From Rhodopirellula sp. (GTDB lineage Bacteria > Planctomycetota > Planctomycetia > Pirellulales > Pirellulaceae), in assembly GCA_024644085.1 (NCBI GenBank), contig JAHELS010000018.1, forward strand, positions 1 through 52,752: a stretch of 52,752 bases of DNA, in the 5' to 3' direction. Within the stretch, counting starts at the first letter, position 1. The number at the start of each line of letters is the position of its first letter. A program made the translations under genes and the position numbers. Shown one piece after another: positions 33,486 through 42,719 of this stretch. The notes below the pieces were generated by a model. That model was not told the origin of the DNA and did not search any database. It worked only from the letters and a program-made list of their open reading frames with translations.

Positions 33486-34907
33486 ATGATACACTCGAAA
33501 ATGTCCACCCGACGCCAGTTGTTTCAGACCTGTGGAGTCGGGTTGGGCAAGCTCGCTTTGGCGTCGTTGATGGTACGCGAGTTTGGTTCGCAAAGTGCGA
33601 GCGCAGCGTTTGTCTCTGCGCGCGGGTTTCATCATCCGCCGCGGGTCAAACGGGTGATCTATTTGTTCATGGCCGGTGCACCGAGCCAGTTGGACCTGTT
33701 CGATTTCAAACCCAAGCTTACCGAGCTCGAAGGCAAATCCATTCCGCCTTCGGTGATCGCGGGCCAGCGTTACGCATTCATTCAACCCGATGCTGCCGTG
33801 CTGTCCCCGCGATTCAAATTTGCGAGACACGGCCAATCGGGTGCTGAGATTTCCGAGGTGATGCCGCATCTCGGGTCGATCGCTGATGACATTGCCATTG
33901 TTAAGAGCGTCCACACCGATCAATTCAATCACTCGCCGGCACAGCTGTTCGTCAACACGGGCAGCCCCATTCCCGGTCGTCCCGCAATGGGGTCGTGGCT
34001 CAGTTACGGGATCGGCAGCGATACCGACGACTTGCCCGGTTTCGTGGTGCTCAACAGCGGCGGAAACCTCTCCGGTGGTGCTGCGATGTGGAACGCCGGG
34101 TTCTTACCCGGTGAACACCAGGGGGTGCCCTTTCGCTCCAACGGCGATCCGATTCTGCACGTCGCCAACCCGCCCGGCATCGATACCCAGGTGCAACGAG
34201 AGACGATTGACCTGATTCGACAACTCAACCAGCGCCGGTTGGAGAAAACGGCGATTGAACAGATCGAGACGCGGATCGAATCGTACGAGATGGCCTACCG
34301 AATGCAAGCGCGGGCACCGGAGCTGATGGATTTCTCATCCGAAAGTCAATCAACCCTCGATCAGTACGGTGTTGGCAAAGACGACAAGGGATCGTTCGCC
34401 AAGAATTGCCTGCTCGCTCGACGGTTGGCCGAACGGGGTGTCCGCTTTATCCAGCTCTACCATTCCGGTTGGGACCATCACAGCAATGTCGAGAACGGGG
34501 TCCGAAACCAATGCGGCCAGACCGACCAGGCCTGCGCGGCTCTGGTCAAGGACCTCAAACGACGTGGAATGCTCGACGAAACGCTGGTGGTCTGGGGAGG
34601 CGAATTTGGGCGAACACCGATGGTCGAAGCCAGCGCCGCCCTGGGGCGAAAGCTCGGGCGCGATCACCATCCTCAGGCGTTCACGATGTGGATGGCCGGA
34701 GGCGGGATCCGCGCCGGCCAAACCGTCGGCAAGACCGACGACCTCGGTTTTCATCCCGTTGAATACCCCGTTCACGTCCACGATATTCAGGCAACCATCC
34801 TGCACCAACTGGGAATCGATCACGAGCGGTTAACCTTTACCTATGCAGGTCGACCGTTTCGATTGACCGACGTACACGGACACGTGATCGAAAAGCTTGT
34901 CAATTAA
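33486..34907 (+). CDS. DUF1501 domain protein with Tat-type signal
   Basis: 473 residues. The N-terminus has a twin-arginine export signal (STRRQLFQTCGVGLGKLALA). The rest matches DUF1501, a sulfatase/alkaline-phosphatase-fold family very common in planctomycetes: VIYLFMAGAPSQLDLFDFKP, AEISEVMPHLGSIADDIAIV, GVRFIQLYHSGWDHHSN, LVVWGGEFGRTPMVE, DHHPQAFTMWMAGGGIRAG. Members usually sit next to a DUF1549/DUF1553 gene; this one does not, unlike its paralogue at 39343-40617. Function is not established; roles in sulfated polysaccharide use have been suggested for the group. CAGGGA upstream of the ATG is a reasonable ribosome site. Confidence 0.92.
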   Translation: MIHSKMSTRRQLFQTCGVGLGKLALASLMVREFGSQSASAAFVSARGFHHPPRVKRVIYLFMAGAPSQLDLFDFKPKLTELEGKSIPPSVIAGQRYAFIQPDAAVLSPRFKFARHGQSGAEISEVMPHLGSIADDIAIVKSVHTDQFNHSPAQLFVNTGSPIPGRPAMGSWLSYGIGSDTDDLPGFVVLNSGGNLSGGAAMWNAGFLPGEHQGVPFRSNGDPILHVANPPGIDTQVQRETIDLIRQLNQRRLEKTAIEQIETRIESYEMAYRMQARAPELMDFSSESQSTLDQYGVGKDDKGSFAKNCLLARRLAERGVRFIQLYHSGWDHHSNVENGVRNQCGQTDQACAALVKDLKRRGMLDETLVVWGGEFGRTPMVEASAALGRKLGRDHHPQAFTMWMAGGGIRAGQTVGKTDDLGFHPVEYPVHVHDIQATILHQLGIDHERLTFTYAGRPFRLTDVHGHVIEKLVN

Positions 34908-36785: not shown

Positions 36786-38708
36786 CTACGGCCGCAGCAT
36801 CCACCAGACGCGGTGCAGCAGCAACTCGGGGCTGACGTTTGCCTCTCGCATCGCATCGGCGGCCGTGGCGACAGTGTCCGGCACAGAGCTTCGTCCGGCA
36901 AGGTAGGCGAGGTGCTCGACCTTGCTCTGATCATCCTCGATCAGGGTCAACCACTGGACGGGCAACGATTCGGCCCGGCTGGGGAAGTCCAGCGAGAGTC
37001 GTTTGACGTCGACTTGGTTTCGTTCCCCGTTGTCCGGGGCGTCACCGATTTGGCCGACAAAGGCCGGGTTATCTGTATCAATCGACGCCCCGATCGCTCG
37101 CATCGTTTCGTCCAATCGGTCTCGCATCGAAACGTCGGCCCGCGGAGGCAGCGCGGCGGCAAATGCATCGACCGCATCCATCGCCGCTCGCGTCTCAGCT
37201 TCGCCGGCTGAGAGGACGTTCCCAGCGAGCAACGGAGGGGGCACCGCACGGCGGGTCGCCGGTGAAGCGATGACCAATGCGAGGGTGCGTGCCACGTCGA
37301 ATCCCGAATGCATCAAATCGCGGGTCAAGTTTTCTTCGAGCCGATCGAGTGCTTCGTTATGCGGAGCGCTGATCGGATCGACAACGCGTCCCCGCAGCGG
37401 TTGGCCATGGACGAGTTGCCACAGTGAATTAACGACACCCTGGGCCAACTCCGGAGAGCCATTCAAATGCTGGGTCCATTGGCCGATCGTATCGATCGGT
37501 TGATCGGATTGCCCGTCAATCCAACTCGATGCAATGGCGGGCTCGGCAACCCGTTGGCGTCCGTCGGTCAATTCATAGAAAACCGAGTCGTCTGAATTCG
37601 AAGACGCATCGATCGCGAATTGATTCCCCGCACCCCGAGTCACGCCTCGTCGCAGAAACGCGGTGAACGCCCAATAATCTTCCTGGCGACCGTTGCCTTC
37701 GATATAGGAATCGTGGCACCGGGTGCAGCGAAGATCGACATTCATGGTCAACGATGCCAGACGTCGGACGATCGCGCTATCATCACCATTGACGTTCGAG
37801 CCAACCGAGATCGCCTGGTAAAACGCCGGCGAATTGGAGCTAGTGCCGTTGATCCAGCCGGAGATCGTATGATCAAAGCGTTGCTGCAACTGGAAACAGG
37901 CAACCAATTCATCGATCAATTCCTCCTTTGCTTGCGCGTCGATTCGCGCCAGCCCGCGTTCGGTGATCTGCTGTAACCAACGCGTCGCGACGGCACGCGA
38001 CAACTCGTCTTTGCCGATCTCGACGCGCAGCCGTTCAGGATCATCGACAAGTTCCATGGGCACCGTAGCGCCGAGCAACATCGAAAGCCGGTCCACGACT
38101 TCTTCGGCACTGGCATCGCCCACTGGCTCGATCCCGATCGCATCCCAGTAACCACGCAGCTCCGAATCGACTTGACTGGATACGAGCGATACGGCCTCGA
38201 GGGGACCGGGAGCGACCTGCTCGATGACGGAACCGTTGCGCTCGATCATTTCAGGATCATCACGACCGGAATCAACGACCAACGGGATGCCTTTGGGGGG
38301 CTTTCTGGTCGGAGTCGATTCAGCCACGGCCCGATCGGGAACGACAATGGGTGTGCGAGGTTCGATTGATGGTGATGGGATCGCCGGTTGACCACCATCG
38401 CTTTCGGCCAGCGCAGGCGAGGAGTCGTTCAGCCATTGTTGCGGTTCCAACCAGACGGCGATCATCACGGTCGCCGCAATTGCCGCGATCACGGTCGCCG
38501 CAACAGCAAGATGATTCCTCGACGCCGGCCGAACATCACGGCGGCCGGGCGATCGATTGGTACGCACGAATGATGCGACCTCGGACGGCGAATCGTGCAG
38601 CGACGTCAGGATGTCGCGCGACAAATCGGGCGGCGCCGCGTTGCCGAGCGTCTCGCCAAGCATCGCGTCGATCGCTTGCTCTTCGACAGGTGTCAGGTCT
38701 TCATTCAT
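36786..38708 (-). CDS. Membrane anti-sigma-like protein with DUF1549/DUF1553-like c-type-cytochrome region
   Basis: 640 residues from the ATG at 38708, which overlaps the sigma gene's TGA (ATGA). Residues 1-65 are cytoplasmic and helical (MNEDLTPVEEQAIDAMLGET, PPDLSRDILTSL), in the place where anti-sigma domains bind. A single membrane helix follows (~67-87, HLAVAATVIAAIAATVMIAV). The long extracytoplasmic part has a Pro-rich spacer, then a region aligning by eye with DUF1549/DUF1553 proteins: LRCTRCHDSYIEGNGRQ (near residue 328), DSVFYELTDGRQRVAEP, GVVNSLWQLVHGQPLRGRVV and RDLMHSGFDVARTLALVIAS. The CxxCH suggests covalent haem binding, although only one such motif is seen. It is the last gene of the operon whose first gene encodes a full DUF1549/1553 protein. 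Anti-sigma function is inferred from position and layout. Confidence 0.82.
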   Translation of the reverse strand: MNEDLTPVEEQAIDAMLGETLGNAAPPDLSRDILTSLHDSPSEVASFVRTNRSPGRRDVRPASRNHLAVAATVIAAIAATVMIAVWLEPQQWLNDSSPALAESDGGQPAIPSPSIEPRTPIVVPDRAVAESTPTRKPPKGIPLVVDSGRDDPEMIERNGSVIEQVAPGPLEAVSLVSSQVDSELRGYWDAIGIEPVGDASAEEVVDRLSMLLGATVPMELVDDPERLRVEIGKDELSRAVATRWLQQITERGLARIDAQAKEELIDELVACFQLQQRFDHTISGWINGTSSNSPAFYQAISVGSNVNGDDSAIVRRLASLTMNVDLRCTRCHDSYIEGNGRQEDYWAFTAFLRRGVTRGAGNQFAIDASSNSDDSVFYELTDGRQRVAEPAIASSWIDGQSDQPIDTIGQWTQHLNGSPELAQGVVNSLWQLVHGQPLRGRVVDPISAPHNEALDRLEENLTRDLMHSGFDVARTLALVIASPATRRAVPPPLLAGNVLSAGEAETRAAMDAVDAFAAALPPRADVSMRDRLDETMRAIGASIDTDNPAFVGQIGDAPDNGERNQVDVKRLSLDFPSRAESLPVQWLTLIEDDQSKVEHLAYLAGRSSVPDTVATAADAMREANVSPELLLHRVWWMLRP

Positions 38709-39337
38709 GATTCGGAATCGCCCCGCAGTCGCTGCTCCACACATTGGCGGAGTTGTTGTTTGGCTCGTTGCATCAGATTGCGGGCTCCGTGATCAGAGAT
38801 GTCGAGTGATTTTCCGATGTCGACTCGGCTGACCTGGTCCGCAAATCTCAATTTCAATGCTTGCTGTGCTCGTTCGGATAGGGTTGAGAAACATTCACGC
38901 AATGCTTCGATGGCGAGATCGCCGGTCAAATCTTTTCCTGCCCAGCGGTCCCAGGTTTCGTCCAACAAGGCCGGTTCGGCGATCGTCTGGACTCGACCCT
39001 GCTTACGATGTTGGGACACGAGCAGGTTGTATGCGGTTCTCCGCAGGTAACTTGATGTAGCGGCGTCGCTGTGTTGCACGAAGCTGTCGCGCCGCAGCAC
39101 TCGTAAAAAGGTCTCCTGTGTCAAATCATCGGCGGTCGACGAGTCACATCCCAGCATTCTCAGGTAGCGCCAGATTCCGCGTTGGTGACGCGCGACCAGT
39201 TCGGCCGGCCCCAATTCAACCGCTTCGCCAGATGAGGGGGCGTCGCTCTGGGCGCTCGCATCCTCATTTTGGCTGGGCGATTCCGAATGGGACAGGGTTT
39301 CCGAGGGCCGGTCTTGCGATCCCTGCGGCTCTGCCAC
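38705..39337 (-). CDS. ECF sigma factor
   Basis: 210 residues from a GTG at 39337, five bases after the DUF1501 stop, so translation is probably coupled. The first ~45 residues are Ser/Glu/Gln/Asp-rich and probably unstructured. Region 2 is ELVARHQRGIWRYLRMLGCD then TADDLTQETFLRVLRR; region 4 is LSERAQQALKLRFADQVSRV followed by GKSLDISDHGARNLMQRAKQ. This is a standard ECF arrangement with no extra C-terminal domain. Its stop overlaps the start of the membrane anti-sigma-like protein. Being embedded in a DUF1549-DUF1501 operon, it may control that operon itself and further genes of the same type elsewhere (inference). Confidence 0.93.
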   Translation of the reverse strand: MAEPQGSQDRPSETLSHSESPSQNEDASAQSDAPSSGEAVELGPAELVARHQRGIWRYLRMLGCDSSTADDLTQETFLRVLRRDSFVQHSDAATSSYLRRTAYNLLVSQHRKQGRVQTIAEPALLDETWDRWAGKDLTGDLAIEALRECFSTLSERAQQALKLRFADQVSRVDIGKSLDISDHGARNLMQRAKQQLRQCVEQRLRGDSES

Positions 39338-39342
39338 TTGGT

Positions 39343-40617
39343 TTACGCCACAAGTTCGCTGATGATCTTTCCACCTCCAGCAATTTTCATCGGTCGACCA
39401 TTTTTACTGGTGAACGTTTTCTCGGTTGAAATCCCTAGACCGCGACAAACGGTGGTCATCAGGTCTTCGCTGCTGAACGGTTCAGTTTCGACCGCCATGC
39501 CATCGCTGCTGGTTTCGCCAACCGCGAGGCCTCCCTTGATATCGCCGCCGCCGACGACACAGGACCAGGCACGGGCGAAGTGATCACGACCGGCATTCTG
39601 GTTGATGCGGGGCGTGCGTCCGAATTCACCCATCCAGATCACCACGGTGTCCTTGAGCAACTCCCGCTGCGCCAAGTCTTCGACCAGGGCACCCATGGCG
39701 CGGTCAAGCTGCGGCAACTTGTTATCCGACAGGATGGTATGGATCCCGTTGTGGTTATCCCAACCGCCGAGATCAACTTCCACAAACGGCACACCCGCTT
39801 CGACCAATCGACGAGCCAACAGGCAACCCTGGCCGAAGCCATCGGTGCCGTAGCGCTCCTTGACCTCTTCCGGCTCTTTCTCGACTCGGAACGCTTCCAT
39901 CTGGTCGCTGGTCATCAAGTCAAATGTCTTCTTGAGAACCTTGGCATGTTCGCTGGCAGGCAAATCGCGCGTTCGCTTTGCGAATCCAGTTTCGATTGTG
40001 TCCAGCGCCGCCATCCGCTGCAGCAAGCGGTTGTCCTCAAGCTTCATCTCGAGGTTCCGGATACGCCCGTTGCTGGTAACCGAAAACGGAGACCATGCCA
40101 TGCCGAGGAATCCAGGTCCCGCACTGGCACCGCCGATTGAGACGAACGGAGGGATTTCAAGGTGCGGGCGCTGGTCCATCGTTTCGTGTGCGATCACCGC
40201 CCCGTAACTGGGATGCTCGATGTTCGGGTTGGGAACAAAACCGGTGTGCATGTAATAGCGGCCGCGGTTGTGATCCGCTTCACGCGTCGACATGCTTCGC
40301 ACGATCGACAGATGCTTCATCTGCTGGGCGACGTTCGGCATGTGTTCACAAATCTGCATGTCACCGGTGGTCGAAATCGGCTTGAAGGGCCCGCCGGTCG
40401 GGGCACCGGGTTTCAGGTCCCAGATATCGATCGTCGCTGGTCCACCACCCATCCACAGCAGGATGGCCGACTTGCCATTCTTCTTGAGTTCGTCGGAGTT
40501 CGCGTAGATCGCGTTGCCCATTGTCATCGATGCGGTAACCGCCGCGGATGAACCGGCCAGGTGTTGCATGAAGTGCCGTCGCGTCATGCCGGCGGGGGTT
40601 TGCCAATTGCTAATCAT
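39343..40617 (-). CDS. DUF1501 domain protein with Tat-type signal
   Basis: 424 residues. A twin-arginine signal is near the N-terminus (MTRRHFMQHLAGSSAAVTAS). DUF1501 features: AILLWMGGGPATIDIWDLKP, GDMQICEHMPNVAQQMKHLS, FVEVDLGGWDNHNGIHT, VVIWMGEFGRTPRINQNAG and DHFARAWSCVVGGGDIKGGL. It is shorter than and clearly paralogous to the protein at 33486-34907. Here it follows a DUF1549/1553 gene, the usual planctomycete pairing, and is followed after 5 bp by an ECF sigma gene, which is not usual. The 154-bp gap upstream contains a long hairpin. The ATG at 40617 has only a modest GGAAA ribosome site; an internal ATG ten codons on is an alternative. Confidence 0.92.
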   Translation of the reverse strand: MISNWQTPAGMTRRHFMQHLAGSSAAVTASMTMGNAIYANSDELKKNGKSAILLWMGGGPATIDIWDLKPGAPTGGPFKPISTTGDMQICEHMPNVAQQMKHLSIVRSMSTREADHNRGRYYMHTGFVPNPNIEHPSYGAVIAHETMDQRPHLEIPPFVSIGGASAGPGFLGMAWSPFSVTSNGRIRNLEMKLEDNRLLQRMAALDTIETGFAKRTRDLPASEHAKVLKKTFDLMTSDQMEAFRVEKEPEEVKERYGTDGFGQGCLLARRLVEAGVPFVEVDLGGWDNHNGIHTILSDNKLPQLDRAMGALVEDLAQRELLKDTVVIWMGEFGRTPRINQNAGRDHFARAWSCVVGGGDIKGGLAVGETSSDGMAVETEPFSSEDLMTTVCRGLGISTEKTFTSKNGRPMKIAGGGKIISELVA

Positions 40618-40695
40618 CGATAGGTTTCCAAGGAGGAGTTTAAGCGTGTGTCAGTAAGTGAAAGGGAAGGGTGGTGAAAAAGATGAACCAGGCTT

Positions 40696-40755
40696 TGTCT
40701 CAAAAGGGGCCTGACCCTCTCCATGCAACTAAAGGGTCAGGCCCCTTTTGAGACA
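40696..40755. repeat. Perfect 23-bp inverted repeat (REP-like hairpin)
   Basis: Arms at 40696-40718 and 40733-40755 are exact reverse complements (arm core CAAAAGGGGCCTGACCCT) around a 14-nt loop. The element lies between the DUF1549/1553 gene and the DUF1501 gene of the same operon. No T-tract follows on the minus strand, so it is unlikely to stop transcription by itself; it could stabilise the upstream message, attenuate, or be a dispersed REP-type element. GGGGYCTGACCC-type palindromes resemble those I associate with REP/RAYT elements in several bacteria. Confidence 0.8.
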
Positions 40756-40771
40756 TGGTGCGAAAGATGGA

Positions 40772-42415
40772 CTAGTGCTGCATGATGAATTCGTTGCTGT
40801 TAAGAATGGCCCACCACATGTCCTGGAGCATTTCTTTTTCGTCCCCGCCGCGGGCGGCAAGAAGCTTGTTGGCGACGGTCATTTCACTGCGCGTCGGCCG
40901 CCGTGCCAGACCCGACATGAACAACTCGGTCAATCGGTCTCGTGGTGATCGTCCGGTGGCGGCGATGCGGTCGATGAAGCTTCCCTTGTCGGTGCTGGTG
41001 GCCTTCTTGGTCAAGTCGCCGTTGAACAACATCAGCGCCTGGGGGATGGAACCATTGAACGTCGTGGCTTCGTCACCTTCGTCGGTCCCAAAGGCGACGA
41101 CGAACTGCTGCAACCATCGGCGTCGCTCCTGCTCCTGCTGCTCGTAACTGCCCGAACCTGCCGCGTCGGTGGCGGTGACCATCGACTGGTACAGTTGCTC
41201 GGCCGTCATCTGGCGGAGATAAAACCGCGAGAACTTGGGCATCTCCCCGATCGATGGATCATCGATTTCGTTGTTCGATCCCAGCACCGGCGACAATTGG
41301 TACGATTCGCTCAAGGTGATCCAAGTGATCAACTGCTTGAGGTCATAACTTGCCTGGCGAAACTCCTTGCTCAATTGATTTAACAATTCGGGATGGGACG
41401 TCGGGTTGTGGGGACCCAGGTCGTCGACCGGCTTGGTGAACCCGTATCCAAGAAACAGCGACCACATTCGGTTGACCGCCATCTTGTCCAGGTTCTCGCT
41501 CTCCATCATCAATCGACCGAGTTCGTTACGGCGATTCACGTCGCTCACGAAACCGCTGACGTCGATCGCTGTGCCGTCGGTGAAAACTGGGTAGGCAACG
41601 CGGGTCAATCCATTGCGAAGTTCGTAGAAAACCAATGCATCGAGGGGATCGTTGGCTTCGCCCGCAAAATCTTCATTGACCAGCTCGGCATGATCGATGT
41701 CACGCGTCCCGTCGACAAATCGACGCAGCGAACGAGTTTGCCGGAAGAACGAGTTGAACTCCCAGAACATCTGCTGCTTCCACTGGTTGAACGGGTGATT
41801 GTGACACTGTGTGCACTGCACCTGTTGCCCGAGGAAAATTCGCGATGTGGCACTCGCCGCGAGCACGCCCTTTTCTTCGTTGACCTTGTCGACCAGAAAA
41901 TTCACGGCGCCGTTGAAATTCGGTGCTCCCGGCTTGGTCGCGCCTTCGGCGGTCACAAGCTCGAAGACCATCGTGTTGTAAGGCTTGTTCATCGCGAACG
42001 AGTCACGCAGGTACTTCTGCATCCCATCGCGGCTGGTCATCGAACGCCGATCGGTGCCACCGCTGCGGCCGATCAGAATATTCGTCCAAACGGTGGCCCA
42101 GTGCCCGGCATACTCTTCGGTGTATCGATCGTCGTACAACAACTTCTCGACCAACTTGGCGCGGTTGTCACTGCCACGCTCGTCAAGAAACTCCTGCAAT
42201 TCGTCGTGGCTCGGAATCCGCCCGATCACGTCGAGGAACACGCGTCGACACCACGTGGCATCATCGACCTCCGGTGCAGGTCGAATCTGAAAATCACGCC
42301 ATCCCTGTTCGATGATCTCGTTGATCGCTTCGACCTGGGCGGGGACCGCCCTTTCGGCAGCCACGGCGGGGCCGGCAACCAGAACAGCAAAACAGAGAAG
42401 TGTGTGGCGGACCAT
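40772..42415 (-). CDS. DUF1549/DUF1553 domain protein (planctomycete cytochrome-like)
   Basis: 547 residues with a signal peptide (MVRHTLLCFAVLVAGPAVA). DUF1549: WCRRVFLDVIGRIPSHDELQ, KLLYDDRYTEEYAGHWATVW, and the haem-type motif QCTQCHNHPFNQWKQQMFW near residue 200. DUF1553: LDKMAVNRMWSLFLGYGFTK, DDLGPHNPTSHPELLNQL, LKQLITWITLSESYQLS, and SGLARRPTRSEMTVANKLLA. It lacks the N-terminal PSC/cytochrome domain found in the longer relatives. It is the first gene of the operon with a DUF1501 protein, an ECF sigma factor and the anti-sigma-like protein. The biochemical function of the family is unknown; the CxxCH motif suggests haem and so redox activity in the periplasm. Confidence 0.92.
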   Translation of the reverse strand: MVRHTLLCFAVLVAGPAVAAERAVPAQVEAINEIIEQGWRDFQIRPAPEVDDATWCRRVFLDVIGRIPSHDELQEFLDERGSDNRAKLVEKLLYDDRYTEEYAGHWATVWTNILIGRSGGTDRRSMTSRDGMQKYLRDSFAMNKPYNTMVFELVTAEGATKPGAPNFNGAVNFLVDKVNEEKGVLAASATSRIFLGQQVQCTQCHNHPFNQWKQQMFWEFNSFFRQTRSLRRFVDGTRDIDHAELVNEDFAGEANDPLDALVFYELRNGLTRVAYPVFTDGTAIDVSGFVSDVNRRNELGRLMMESENLDKMAVNRMWSLFLGYGFTKPVDDLGPHNPTSHPELLNQLSKEFRQASYDLKQLITWITLSESYQLSPVLGSNNEIDDPSIGEMPKFSRFYLRQMTAEQLYQSMVTATDAAGSGSYEQQEQERRRWLQQFVVAFGTDEGDEATTFNGSIPQALMLFNGDLTKKATSTDKGSFIDRIAATGRSPRDRLTELFMSGLARRPTRSEMTVANKLLAARGGDEKEMLQDMWWAILNSNEFIMQH

Positions 42416-42719
42416 TTGAAGGGGATCCCGGGAGAGAAAGAGAGGTGTCGCGTCTGATTACAGAACGACCCCGGATAACTGATGTACCCAGAACCAACGC
42501 TTGAGGGGGCCATTCCGGCGAACTTCATTCTATTCGACGGCAACACGTCCCACAAAGACCCGCGTTTCACGGCACTTTCGACGACCAACGCCCAGGATGA
42601 AATCCGATTGAGATGGCTGCGGGAATGCCAGATCGGCTCGCCTCCCCCCAATTGGACAAGAATTGCTGCGGCGGTAGAGCGCACCAGCGCGTGCCGAAAC
42701 GGTCCAGCCGGGGGCGGGC
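42416..42719. other. Intergenic region upstream of the DUF1549-sigma operon
   Basis: 304 bp between the start of the DUF1549/1553 gene and the stop of the phosphatase-like gene, both on the minus strand. It must hold the promoter of the operon. On the minus strand a TAGAAT string (near 42530) could be a -10 hexamer with only weak -35 candidates, and no clear ECF-type GGAAC motif could be assigned. The first ~60 bp upstream of the ATG are rich in C/T (CTCTCTTTCTCTCCCGGG). No gene or repeat was recognised. Confidence 0.4.

Follow-up and report, generated by a model that had tools for sequence, protein, structure and literature searches.

A probable pseudo-enzyme anti-sigma sensor encoded in a DUF1549-DUF1501-sigma operon of Rhodopirellula

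A 52,752-nt stretch of Rhodopirellula sp. (GenBank assembly GCA_024644085.1, 6.9 Mb in 468 contigs; contig JAHELS010000018.1), hereafter the window, carries one minus-strand operon in which a DUF1549/DUF1553 gene is followed by a DUF1501 gene, a gene for an extracytoplasmic function (ECF) sigma factor and a gene for a membrane protein of 640-652 aa. Taken as a whole, the evidence makes it quite likely, in our judgement, that this last protein is a pseudo-enzyme anti-sigma sensor in an autoregulated local circuit. It would be a single-pass membrane anti-sigma factor whose cytoplasmic two-helix module holds the ECF sigma encoded by the preceding gene, and its periplasmic half would be a degenerate paralogue of the operon's own DUF1549/DUF1553 enzyme. 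This pseudo-enzyme would perceive some condition in the periplasm, most likely the presence of substrate or product, the redox or ligand state of a cofactor bound at CxxCH, or how much DUF1501 partner is available, and would then release the sigma. Transcription by free sigma from a TGRGTAC-N16-CGYT promoter ahead of the first gene would raise the amounts of enzyme, DUF1501 partner, sigma and sensor.

The first gene (40772-42415; all coordinates are window positions on the minus strand unless marked otherwise) encodes a DUF1549 plus DUF1553 (PSCyt2/PSD1) protein of 547 aa that is presumed to be an enzyme (Pfam PF07583, E 2.6e-46; PF07587, E 6.8e-27). It has a putative signal peptide, judged by eye, and a CxxCH motif at residues 201-205, and its AlphaFold2 (AF2) model has a mean local confidence (pLDDT) of 88.6 and a predicted template modelling score (pTM) of 0.88. 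The DUF1501 protein (39343-40617; 424 aa; PF07394, E 4.4e-105) shows a weak Tat-signal match (TAT_signal, E 0.18), and its gene ends 5 nt before the sigma gene (38705-39337), which begins with GTG. The encoded 210-aa protein matches Sigma70_r2 (E 9.1e-12) and r4_2 (E 3.4e-8), as well as TIGR02989 at E 2.1e-22, under the cut-off of that model. The sigma stop codon overlaps, as ATGA, an ATG at 38708 that would start a sensor of 640 aa, and the open frame (36786-38744) permits 652 aa. The coordinates, junctions and Pfam matches thus agree with an earlier note on this DNA, which had given the gene order, the 5-bp gap, the ATGA overlap and the identities of the first three genes.

From its open frame, homology and AF2 model, the predicted layout of the sensor is a short cytoplasmic N-terminus, one membrane helix and an extracytoplasmic sensor domain. 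The single transmembrane helix is placed at residues 79-97 (38454-38510; hydropathy 2.58; AF2 helix at 79-98 in blocks of pLDDT 63-66) and the periplasmic DUF1549/DUF1553-derived domain at residues 183-652 (36789-38198). The 10-residue blocks of the AF2 model from residue 181 onward score at least 90, save for 311-320, 341-350, 411-420, 451-460, 531-540, 551-590 and the last two residues.

The likeness between sensor and enzyme is homology over both domains and not chance. BLASTP aligns the sensor with the enzyme of its own operon over 344 residues (E 2e-10, 22% identity), and the alignment passes through all four blocks that the earlier note had lined up by eye. A profile-profile comparison (hhalign) of 66 sensors and fusions, the fused proteins of related loci, with a 56-row enzyme alignment, three rows of which are enzyme-like fusions, gave a probability of 100 and E 2.4e-81 over 473 columns that reach the C-terminus. 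In Pfam, the window's sensor shows only a short DUF1549 stretch (PF07583, E 5.1e-5) with 23.7 bits, below the gathering score of 29.8. Among eight relatives scanned, both DUF1549 and DUF1553 reach their cut-offs in all five enzyme-like or intermediate fusions; of the three diverged ones, L155 passes for DUF1549 only, L043 stays below the cut-off and L140 has no match (L and G numbers are our labels for loci and genomes). Searching the PDB by sequence gave no convincing solved relative of the enzyme (best E 0.66), and Foldseek searches of the PDB with the AF2 models of enzyme and sensor returned nothing at E ≤ 0.001. Many low-scoring Foldseek matches of the enzyme model resembled the phycobilisome linker, and three DUF1549 fusions, L243, L063 and L066, matched the linker family PF00427 below its cut-off (E 5e-4, 0.048 and 0.012, respectively).

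The fused proteins form a graded series in their BLAST scores against the window's enzyme. At the top stand L243 and L245, from other families of the order, with 53% identity; many genera of the window's own family occupy the middle with 32-45%; and the lower end runs from ~22% in the window to nothing detectable, as for the R. baltica sensor against its own enzyme (E 0.02). We defined as enzyme-invariant the 137 positions that are invariant in at least 97% of 131 enzymes, in an alignment that excludes L253, L255, L257 and L258 (not DUF1549), L202, L166, L148 and L227 (truncated or odd) and L120 (on the same contig as L038). These positions are kept at 84% in 30 enzyme-like, 57% in 16 intermediate and 23% in 94 diverged fusions, and at 38 family-wide invariant positions the diverged sensors keep a mean of 38% against 95% in the enzyme-like fusions. 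The polar enzyme-invariant residues are mostly gone from the diverged sensors (H207 kept in 6%, D331 in 1%, E406 in 3%, N465 in 0% and E542 in 1%), which would fit a loss of catalysis.

A small set of residues has been retained by nearly all of the 94 diverged sensors: W200 in 94, CxxCH in 93, H611 in 92, Q565 in 91, W442 in 88 and W358 in 86. The CxxCH of the window's sensor (residues 340-344; 37713-37727) is kept in 138 of 140 fusion or sensor proteins. H611 (36912-36914) is near-invariant and sensor-specific, being histidine also in 16/16 intermediate fusions, in 14/30 enzyme-like fusions and in 19/131 enzymes; 100 of the 102 fused proteins without H207 have it, a figure that counts related sequences and not events. 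The CxxCH motif and the Pfam name PSCyt2 suggest that the family binds haem, and the CxxCH domain is presumably exported. Cytochrome c assembly genes (PF01578) are present in 3/3 genomes searched, the window's included, and cytochrome c Pfam families have no match among the window's proteins or the scanned relatives. We raise as a tentative possibility that the sensor is a haem-c pseudo-enzyme anti-sigma, in which a cytochrome-like enzyme joined to the sigma module has lost its catalytic residues and kept its single CxxCH, with H611 newly fixed as a possible second haem ligand; a redox change, gas or ligand at periplasmic haem c would free the sigma that makes the enzyme, and the genomes would preserve the path from enzyme-like protein to sensor.

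The system is widespread in the genus and its family. A survey of 60 relatives found full-length or nearly full-length sensor orthologues in 18/21 other genomes of the genus, partial ones in two further genomes (G002 and G008) and none in the incomplete genome G014; orthologues also occur in three other genera (G034, G032 and G027) and in Rhodopirellula maiorica. The gene order of the operon was seen in 18 same-genus stretches besides the window, two of them cut by contig ends, and in R. maiorica. Matches to the sigma factor were present in 185/241 genomes of the family at E ≤ 1e-22 and in 87/246 genomes drawn from the order at E ≤ 1e-20. We fetched 170 stretches and analysed 167 loci by script (165 stretches, the window and L038), with a sigma gene found in 166; operon counts refer to 159 loci, since L120 and the six distant-sigma loci L253-L258 were excluded. 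All four genes stand together, as enzyme, DUF1501, sigma and long frame, in 110 of the 159, so the linkage whose conservation the earlier note had named as a check is conserved. Nine loci have sigma, fusion and DUF1501 in that order, 20 have sigma and fusion with nothing further picked up by the script and 20 are partial, so that a frame of at least 550 aa lies directly behind the sigma gene in 139/159 (110+9+20). In 81 of the 110 complete operons the last protein matches its own enzyme (BLASTP E<1e-5).

No enzyme or DUF1501 frame was found upstream of the sigma gene in 31/159 loci, short frames at contig ends being accepted as such, and at least 1,500 nt had been read in 27 of these 31. Adjacency to the enzyme and DUF1501 genes tracks the divergence of the fused protein: an enzyme or DUF1501 frame precedes the sigma gene of 13/30 enzyme-like, 9/16 intermediate and 92/94 diverged fusions, which are kin sequences rather than independent events. 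Behind unlinked fusions with at least 500 nt read, DUF1501 is the next gene in 9/26, and no locus of the 159 has DUF1501 both before the sigma gene and behind the fusion. Because of these two observations, the fused protein may once have partnered DUF1501. They also bear on a variant of our explanation that differs in the signal, namely that the sensing half is a decoy subunit that, in the manner of an assembly sensor, reads free DUF1501 or the stoichiometry of enzyme and DUF1501 instead of a small molecule. The retention of tryptophans and CxxCH alongside the loss of polar invariant residues would suit such a decoy. However, 17 of the 26 unlinked fusions have no DUF1501 behind them and the retained residues could equally be the core of the fold, and we consider this form of the signal rather unlikely.

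The N-terminus of the sensor contains a 34-residue module (residues 19-52; 38589-38690) with the consensus DxxLxExLGGxxPPDLSxxILxxL, for which AF2 predicts two helices, 19-33 and 42-50, at middling confidence (59-82 in 10-residue blocks). A hidden Markov model (HMM) of the module matches 133 of 144 fusion or sensor proteins and none of 120 enzymes (L120, L253, L255, L257 and L258 excluded). Each of six genomes searched with it gave one match at E ≤ 6e-10, always in the sensor gene; three weak matches (E 0.01 to 0.08) came next. In a phylum sample of 149 genomes we obtained 21 matches in 16 genomes, and an ECF sigma gene lies directly upstream of the module protein in 20/20 loci other than the window, whereas the protein is DUF1549-like in just 1/20. 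Pfam scans of 18 of these 20 proteins (all save L326 and L335) found FecR in 3, vWA-YfbK in 6, leucine-rich repeats in 1, weak glycan-binding matches in 2 and nothing in 6. Because ECF sigma genes directly precede the module in every one of these loci, whereas the sensor domains joined to it are mostly of other kinds, the module probably provides the sigma-binding part of the protein, and this genomic context is strong evidence for a swappable sigma-associated unit. The sigma-binding helix region proposed in the earlier note is supported to the extent that the N-terminus is a sigma-associated module.

The domain partners and copy number of the module vary. It precedes a FecR domain behind an ECF sigma in L330, L331 and L340, and an ECF sigma is followed by a membrane protein with the module and vWF_A/VWA/YfbK_C domains in L253, L255, L257, L258, L332, L334, L336, L338, L342 and L343. 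The first four of these are the distant-sigma loci with the module before vWA-YfbK, and the other two distant-sigma loci gave no long frame. Eleven sensors have a tandem double module (nine of one genus, L121, L123, L125 and L128-L133, along with L181 and L187); a twelfth listed pair, in L162, is a weak internal match. By eye L121 has perhaps three copies, and the tandem copies look as if the dose of the module were tuned. The module profile is silent, with the sigma gene still adjacent, in L167, L172, L176, L188, L194, L202, L206, L207 and L216 (genus g11) and in L203 and L208 (genus g67). Such a loss beside a kept sigma gene suggests either a changed mode of sigma binding or lost regulation.

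These data can be set against a reading in which the membrane protein, a paralogous enzyme or subunit, merely shares the operon and is tethered by an N-terminus that serves as an anchor and exerts no control over the sigma. The enzyme-like fusions, with nearly all of their family-wide invariant residues in place, may indeed still be catalytic. Nonetheless, 19 of the 20 phylum loci have the module behind an ECF sigma without DUF1549, a known sigma-regulator domain, FecR, accompanies the module in 3 of the 18 scanned proteins, and the diverged sensors have lost most enzyme-invariant residues in a set of fused proteins that has kept the module almost throughout; this makes mere tethering very unlikely. 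Least probable of all is that the sensor half is an evolutionary relic without sensing, with signalling by proteolysis or through another protein, for although distant sensors are little alike (the lowest aligned identity to the window's sensor is 17%) and the R. baltica sensor has no significant match to its own enzyme, the near-invariance of W200, CxxCH, H611, Q565 and W442, and the sensor-specific H611 in particular, argue for continued selection.

A common ECF-type promoter is predicted to head the operon, and its conservation supports this prediction. In the window it reads TGGGTAC-N16-CGTT and lies 48 nt upstream of the first gene's ATG (42464-42490). In a gapped word search upstream of enzyme genes, GGTAC-N16-CGTT occurred in 35/116 sequences, whereas in three shuffles no word reached more than 6. 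The relaxed pattern RGTAC-N15-17-CGYT, scored within 480 nt upstream of enzyme codon 28, is present before 98/116 operon enzymes, while the opposite strand has 2 occurrences and ten shuffled sets have 0-4; those 116 sequences yielded the pattern and are no independent test of it. In two sets that played no part in deriving it, the pattern precedes 27 of the 31 sigma genes without an upstream enzyme or DUF1501 frame (23/27 where at least 1,500 nt were read) and 9 of 17 unlinked enzyme genes, with 0-2 occurrences in shuffled sigma and enzyme sets. It was found before 0/6 distant sigma genes and 0/11 other DUF1549 paralogues, two of which had only 82 nt to search. In loci with enzyme and DUF1501 upstream, the pattern occurs within 420 nt before the conserved part of the sigma gene in 22/119.

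The earlier note had proposed that the sensor arose from a copy of the enzyme of this operon, and the trees disfavour this origin. A 46-row tree from which the diverged sensors were left out unites fusions and operon-type enzymes in a clade (support 100/100) apart from four other DUF1549 paralogues. Within it, the 11 fusions from the window's family group together (99/95), and 15 enzymes, 14 of the family and L267 of another family, form a separate clade (100/100). A second tree, of 33 rows, includes five diverged sensors, that of the window among them. There, all 12 enzymes form a clade (100/99) with no sensor inside, and constraining sensors and fusions to group together gave a tree 11 log units better than the result of the free search (p-AU 0.72 in the approximately unbiased test). 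A 97-row tree was set aside because the long branches of the diverged sensors made its topology unreliable. The most plausible reading, made with caution in view of those long branches, is that the sensor is an old paralogue of the enzyme.

Genomes in which the two gene sets are separate point to the probable direction of change. We searched 20 genomes with the window's enzyme and found it missing from the sigma locus in 18. Fifteen of the 18 have a free enzyme relative (54-63%) elsewhere, in G361 one was matched in two pieces (52%), and in G050 and G270 the fusion is the only match above 50%. DUF1501 follows 11 of the 17 readable free enzymes; a contig edge ends three others (L271, L273 and L274), and three have no DUF1501 beside them in the stretch (L259, also contained in the longer L286; L269; and L272). 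In G222, the sigma-fusion-DUF1501 set (L199) and the free enzyme (L286) lie ~60 kb apart on the same contig. Because enzyme-like fusions elsewhere adjoin the sigma gene with no enzyme gene upstream, the fusion probably preceded its decay into a sensor. Most simply, a sigma-fusion pair, in some cases accompanied by a DUF1501 gene of its own, would at first have been unlinked to a separate enzyme-DUF1501 pair; the two would later have been joined, the fusion then decaying. The sigma would thus have first adjoined a membrane-anchored, still enzyme-like fused protein, in some genomes with its own DUF1501 gene behind; in the window's family, the enzyme-DUF1501 pair would have come to lie upstream of the sigma, and the fused protein would have lost enzyme residues and retained sensing.

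Several observations weigh against the explanation as a pseudo-enzyme sensor in a local circuit, or against the history just given. The module is not recognisable in 11/144 fusions, no Pfam anti-sigma domain was matched in the window's sensor or the scanned relatives, and matches to the NCBIfam 'anti-sigma factor' family NF052375 are weak (E 0.0023 for the window and 5.6e-4 for L063, far under the cut-off). The promoter pattern is missing before 18/116 operons and 8/17 unlinked enzymes. Across the window's genome its exact matches do not exceed chance (8, against 15 in the reversed control), and because of this the regulon is unreadable from the pattern. In the 33-row tree, a grouping of the diverged sensors with the enzymes was not rejected (p-AU 0.128), and for the deep order the test gave p-AU 0.051 for a single clade of fusions, which may thus have arisen once or several times, and 0.37 for one of enzymes. 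Finally, DUF1501 follows only the 9 of 26 unlinked fusions noted above, and two diverged sensors, L144 and L230, have no enzyme or DUF1501 upstream in the 5.6 kb read.

Sensors derived from enzyme families are known from other systems. In BlaR1/MecR1, the sensor domain is related to the class of enzyme that is induced, as proposed here, but the signal passes through a metalloprotease and a repressor and not through a sigma factor. FecR-type sigma regulators share the N-terminal module behind an ECF sigma in the related planctomycete loci mentioned above, whereas the FecR domain (PF04773) is absent from the window's sensor. In the SigP-RsiP-PbpP system of Bacillus thuringiensis, the penicillin-binding protein PbpP acts as the sensor for an ECF sigma, according to the retrieved part of the report (PMC8092216); an enzyme-family sensor thus serves an ECF sigma there too, but PbpP is separate from the anti-sigma RsiP. 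The closest precedent by analogy appears to be RsgI6 of Clostridium thermocellum, whose outer GH10 domain shares 57% identity with Xyn10D, shows very low activity and still binds ligand, with sigma-I6 controlling xylanase genes and itself (PMC4711584, retrieved text). Both systems would have a membrane anti-sigma that combines a cytoplasmic part for sigma binding, a single membrane segment and an outer domain drawn from an enzyme family under control of the sigma. However, SigI does not belong to the ECF sigmas, the enzymes concerned are glycoside hydrolases of the cellulosome, and the N-terminus of RsgI6 resembles B. subtilis RsgI, whereas the window's sensor has no RsgI-type Pfam match. The retrieved text mentions no graded fusion series of the kind found here. 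The principle is therefore known, but the sigma class, the module, the enzyme family and the preserved series differ.

Next to the operon, a second DUF1501 gene lies at 33486-34907 on the plus strand of the window (473 aa, Pfam E 1.1e-160), with no adjoining DUF1549 gene noticed. It converges with the operon and adjoins it in many same-genus loci.

The R. baltica orthologue of the window's sigma factor lies at 6,860,277-6,860,795 on the minus strand of a 7,145,576-bp contig, which we take to be R. baltica SH1. An ECF sigma factor of that organism, RB10049, which is induced by heat, cold and salt, has been proposed to regulate the PSD1-PSC2 gene RB10051 (Studholme et al., cited in PMC2754498). 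This pair resembles the window's in combining an ECF sigma with a DUF1549/DUF1553 gene, and the retrieved text of PMC2754498 mentions no enzyme-mimicking anti-sigma. We considered it as the orthologous locus and it is probably not, since RB10049 is on the plus strand at ~5.4 Mb (an estimate on linear numbering), away from the minus-strand orthologue at 6.86 Mb. In R. baltica, none of five 20-kb stretches between 5.32 and 5.42 Mb matched the window's enzyme at E 1e-10, and RB10049 was not located in them. In the titles and abstract openings of the literature searched, the sigma-sensor-enzyme circuit is not named, which is no proof of its absence.

The R. baltica genome contains DUF1549 and DUF1553 41 times each (PMC2754498, retrieved text), and a 2017 study of Verrucomicrobia states, in the part retrieved, that nothing is known of the functions of such genes (PMC5615132). 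For this family, the operon would represent a dedicated switch with an enzyme-descended sensing half, a predicted promoter and relatives that grade naturally from enzyme-like forms to pure sensors. The 34-residue module would mark a short, swappable sigma-associated domain that heads FecR, vWA-YfbK, leucine-rich repeat and DUF1549 sensors in 16/149 genomes of the phylum. The ligand of the sensor, once found, would point to the substrate of the enzyme.

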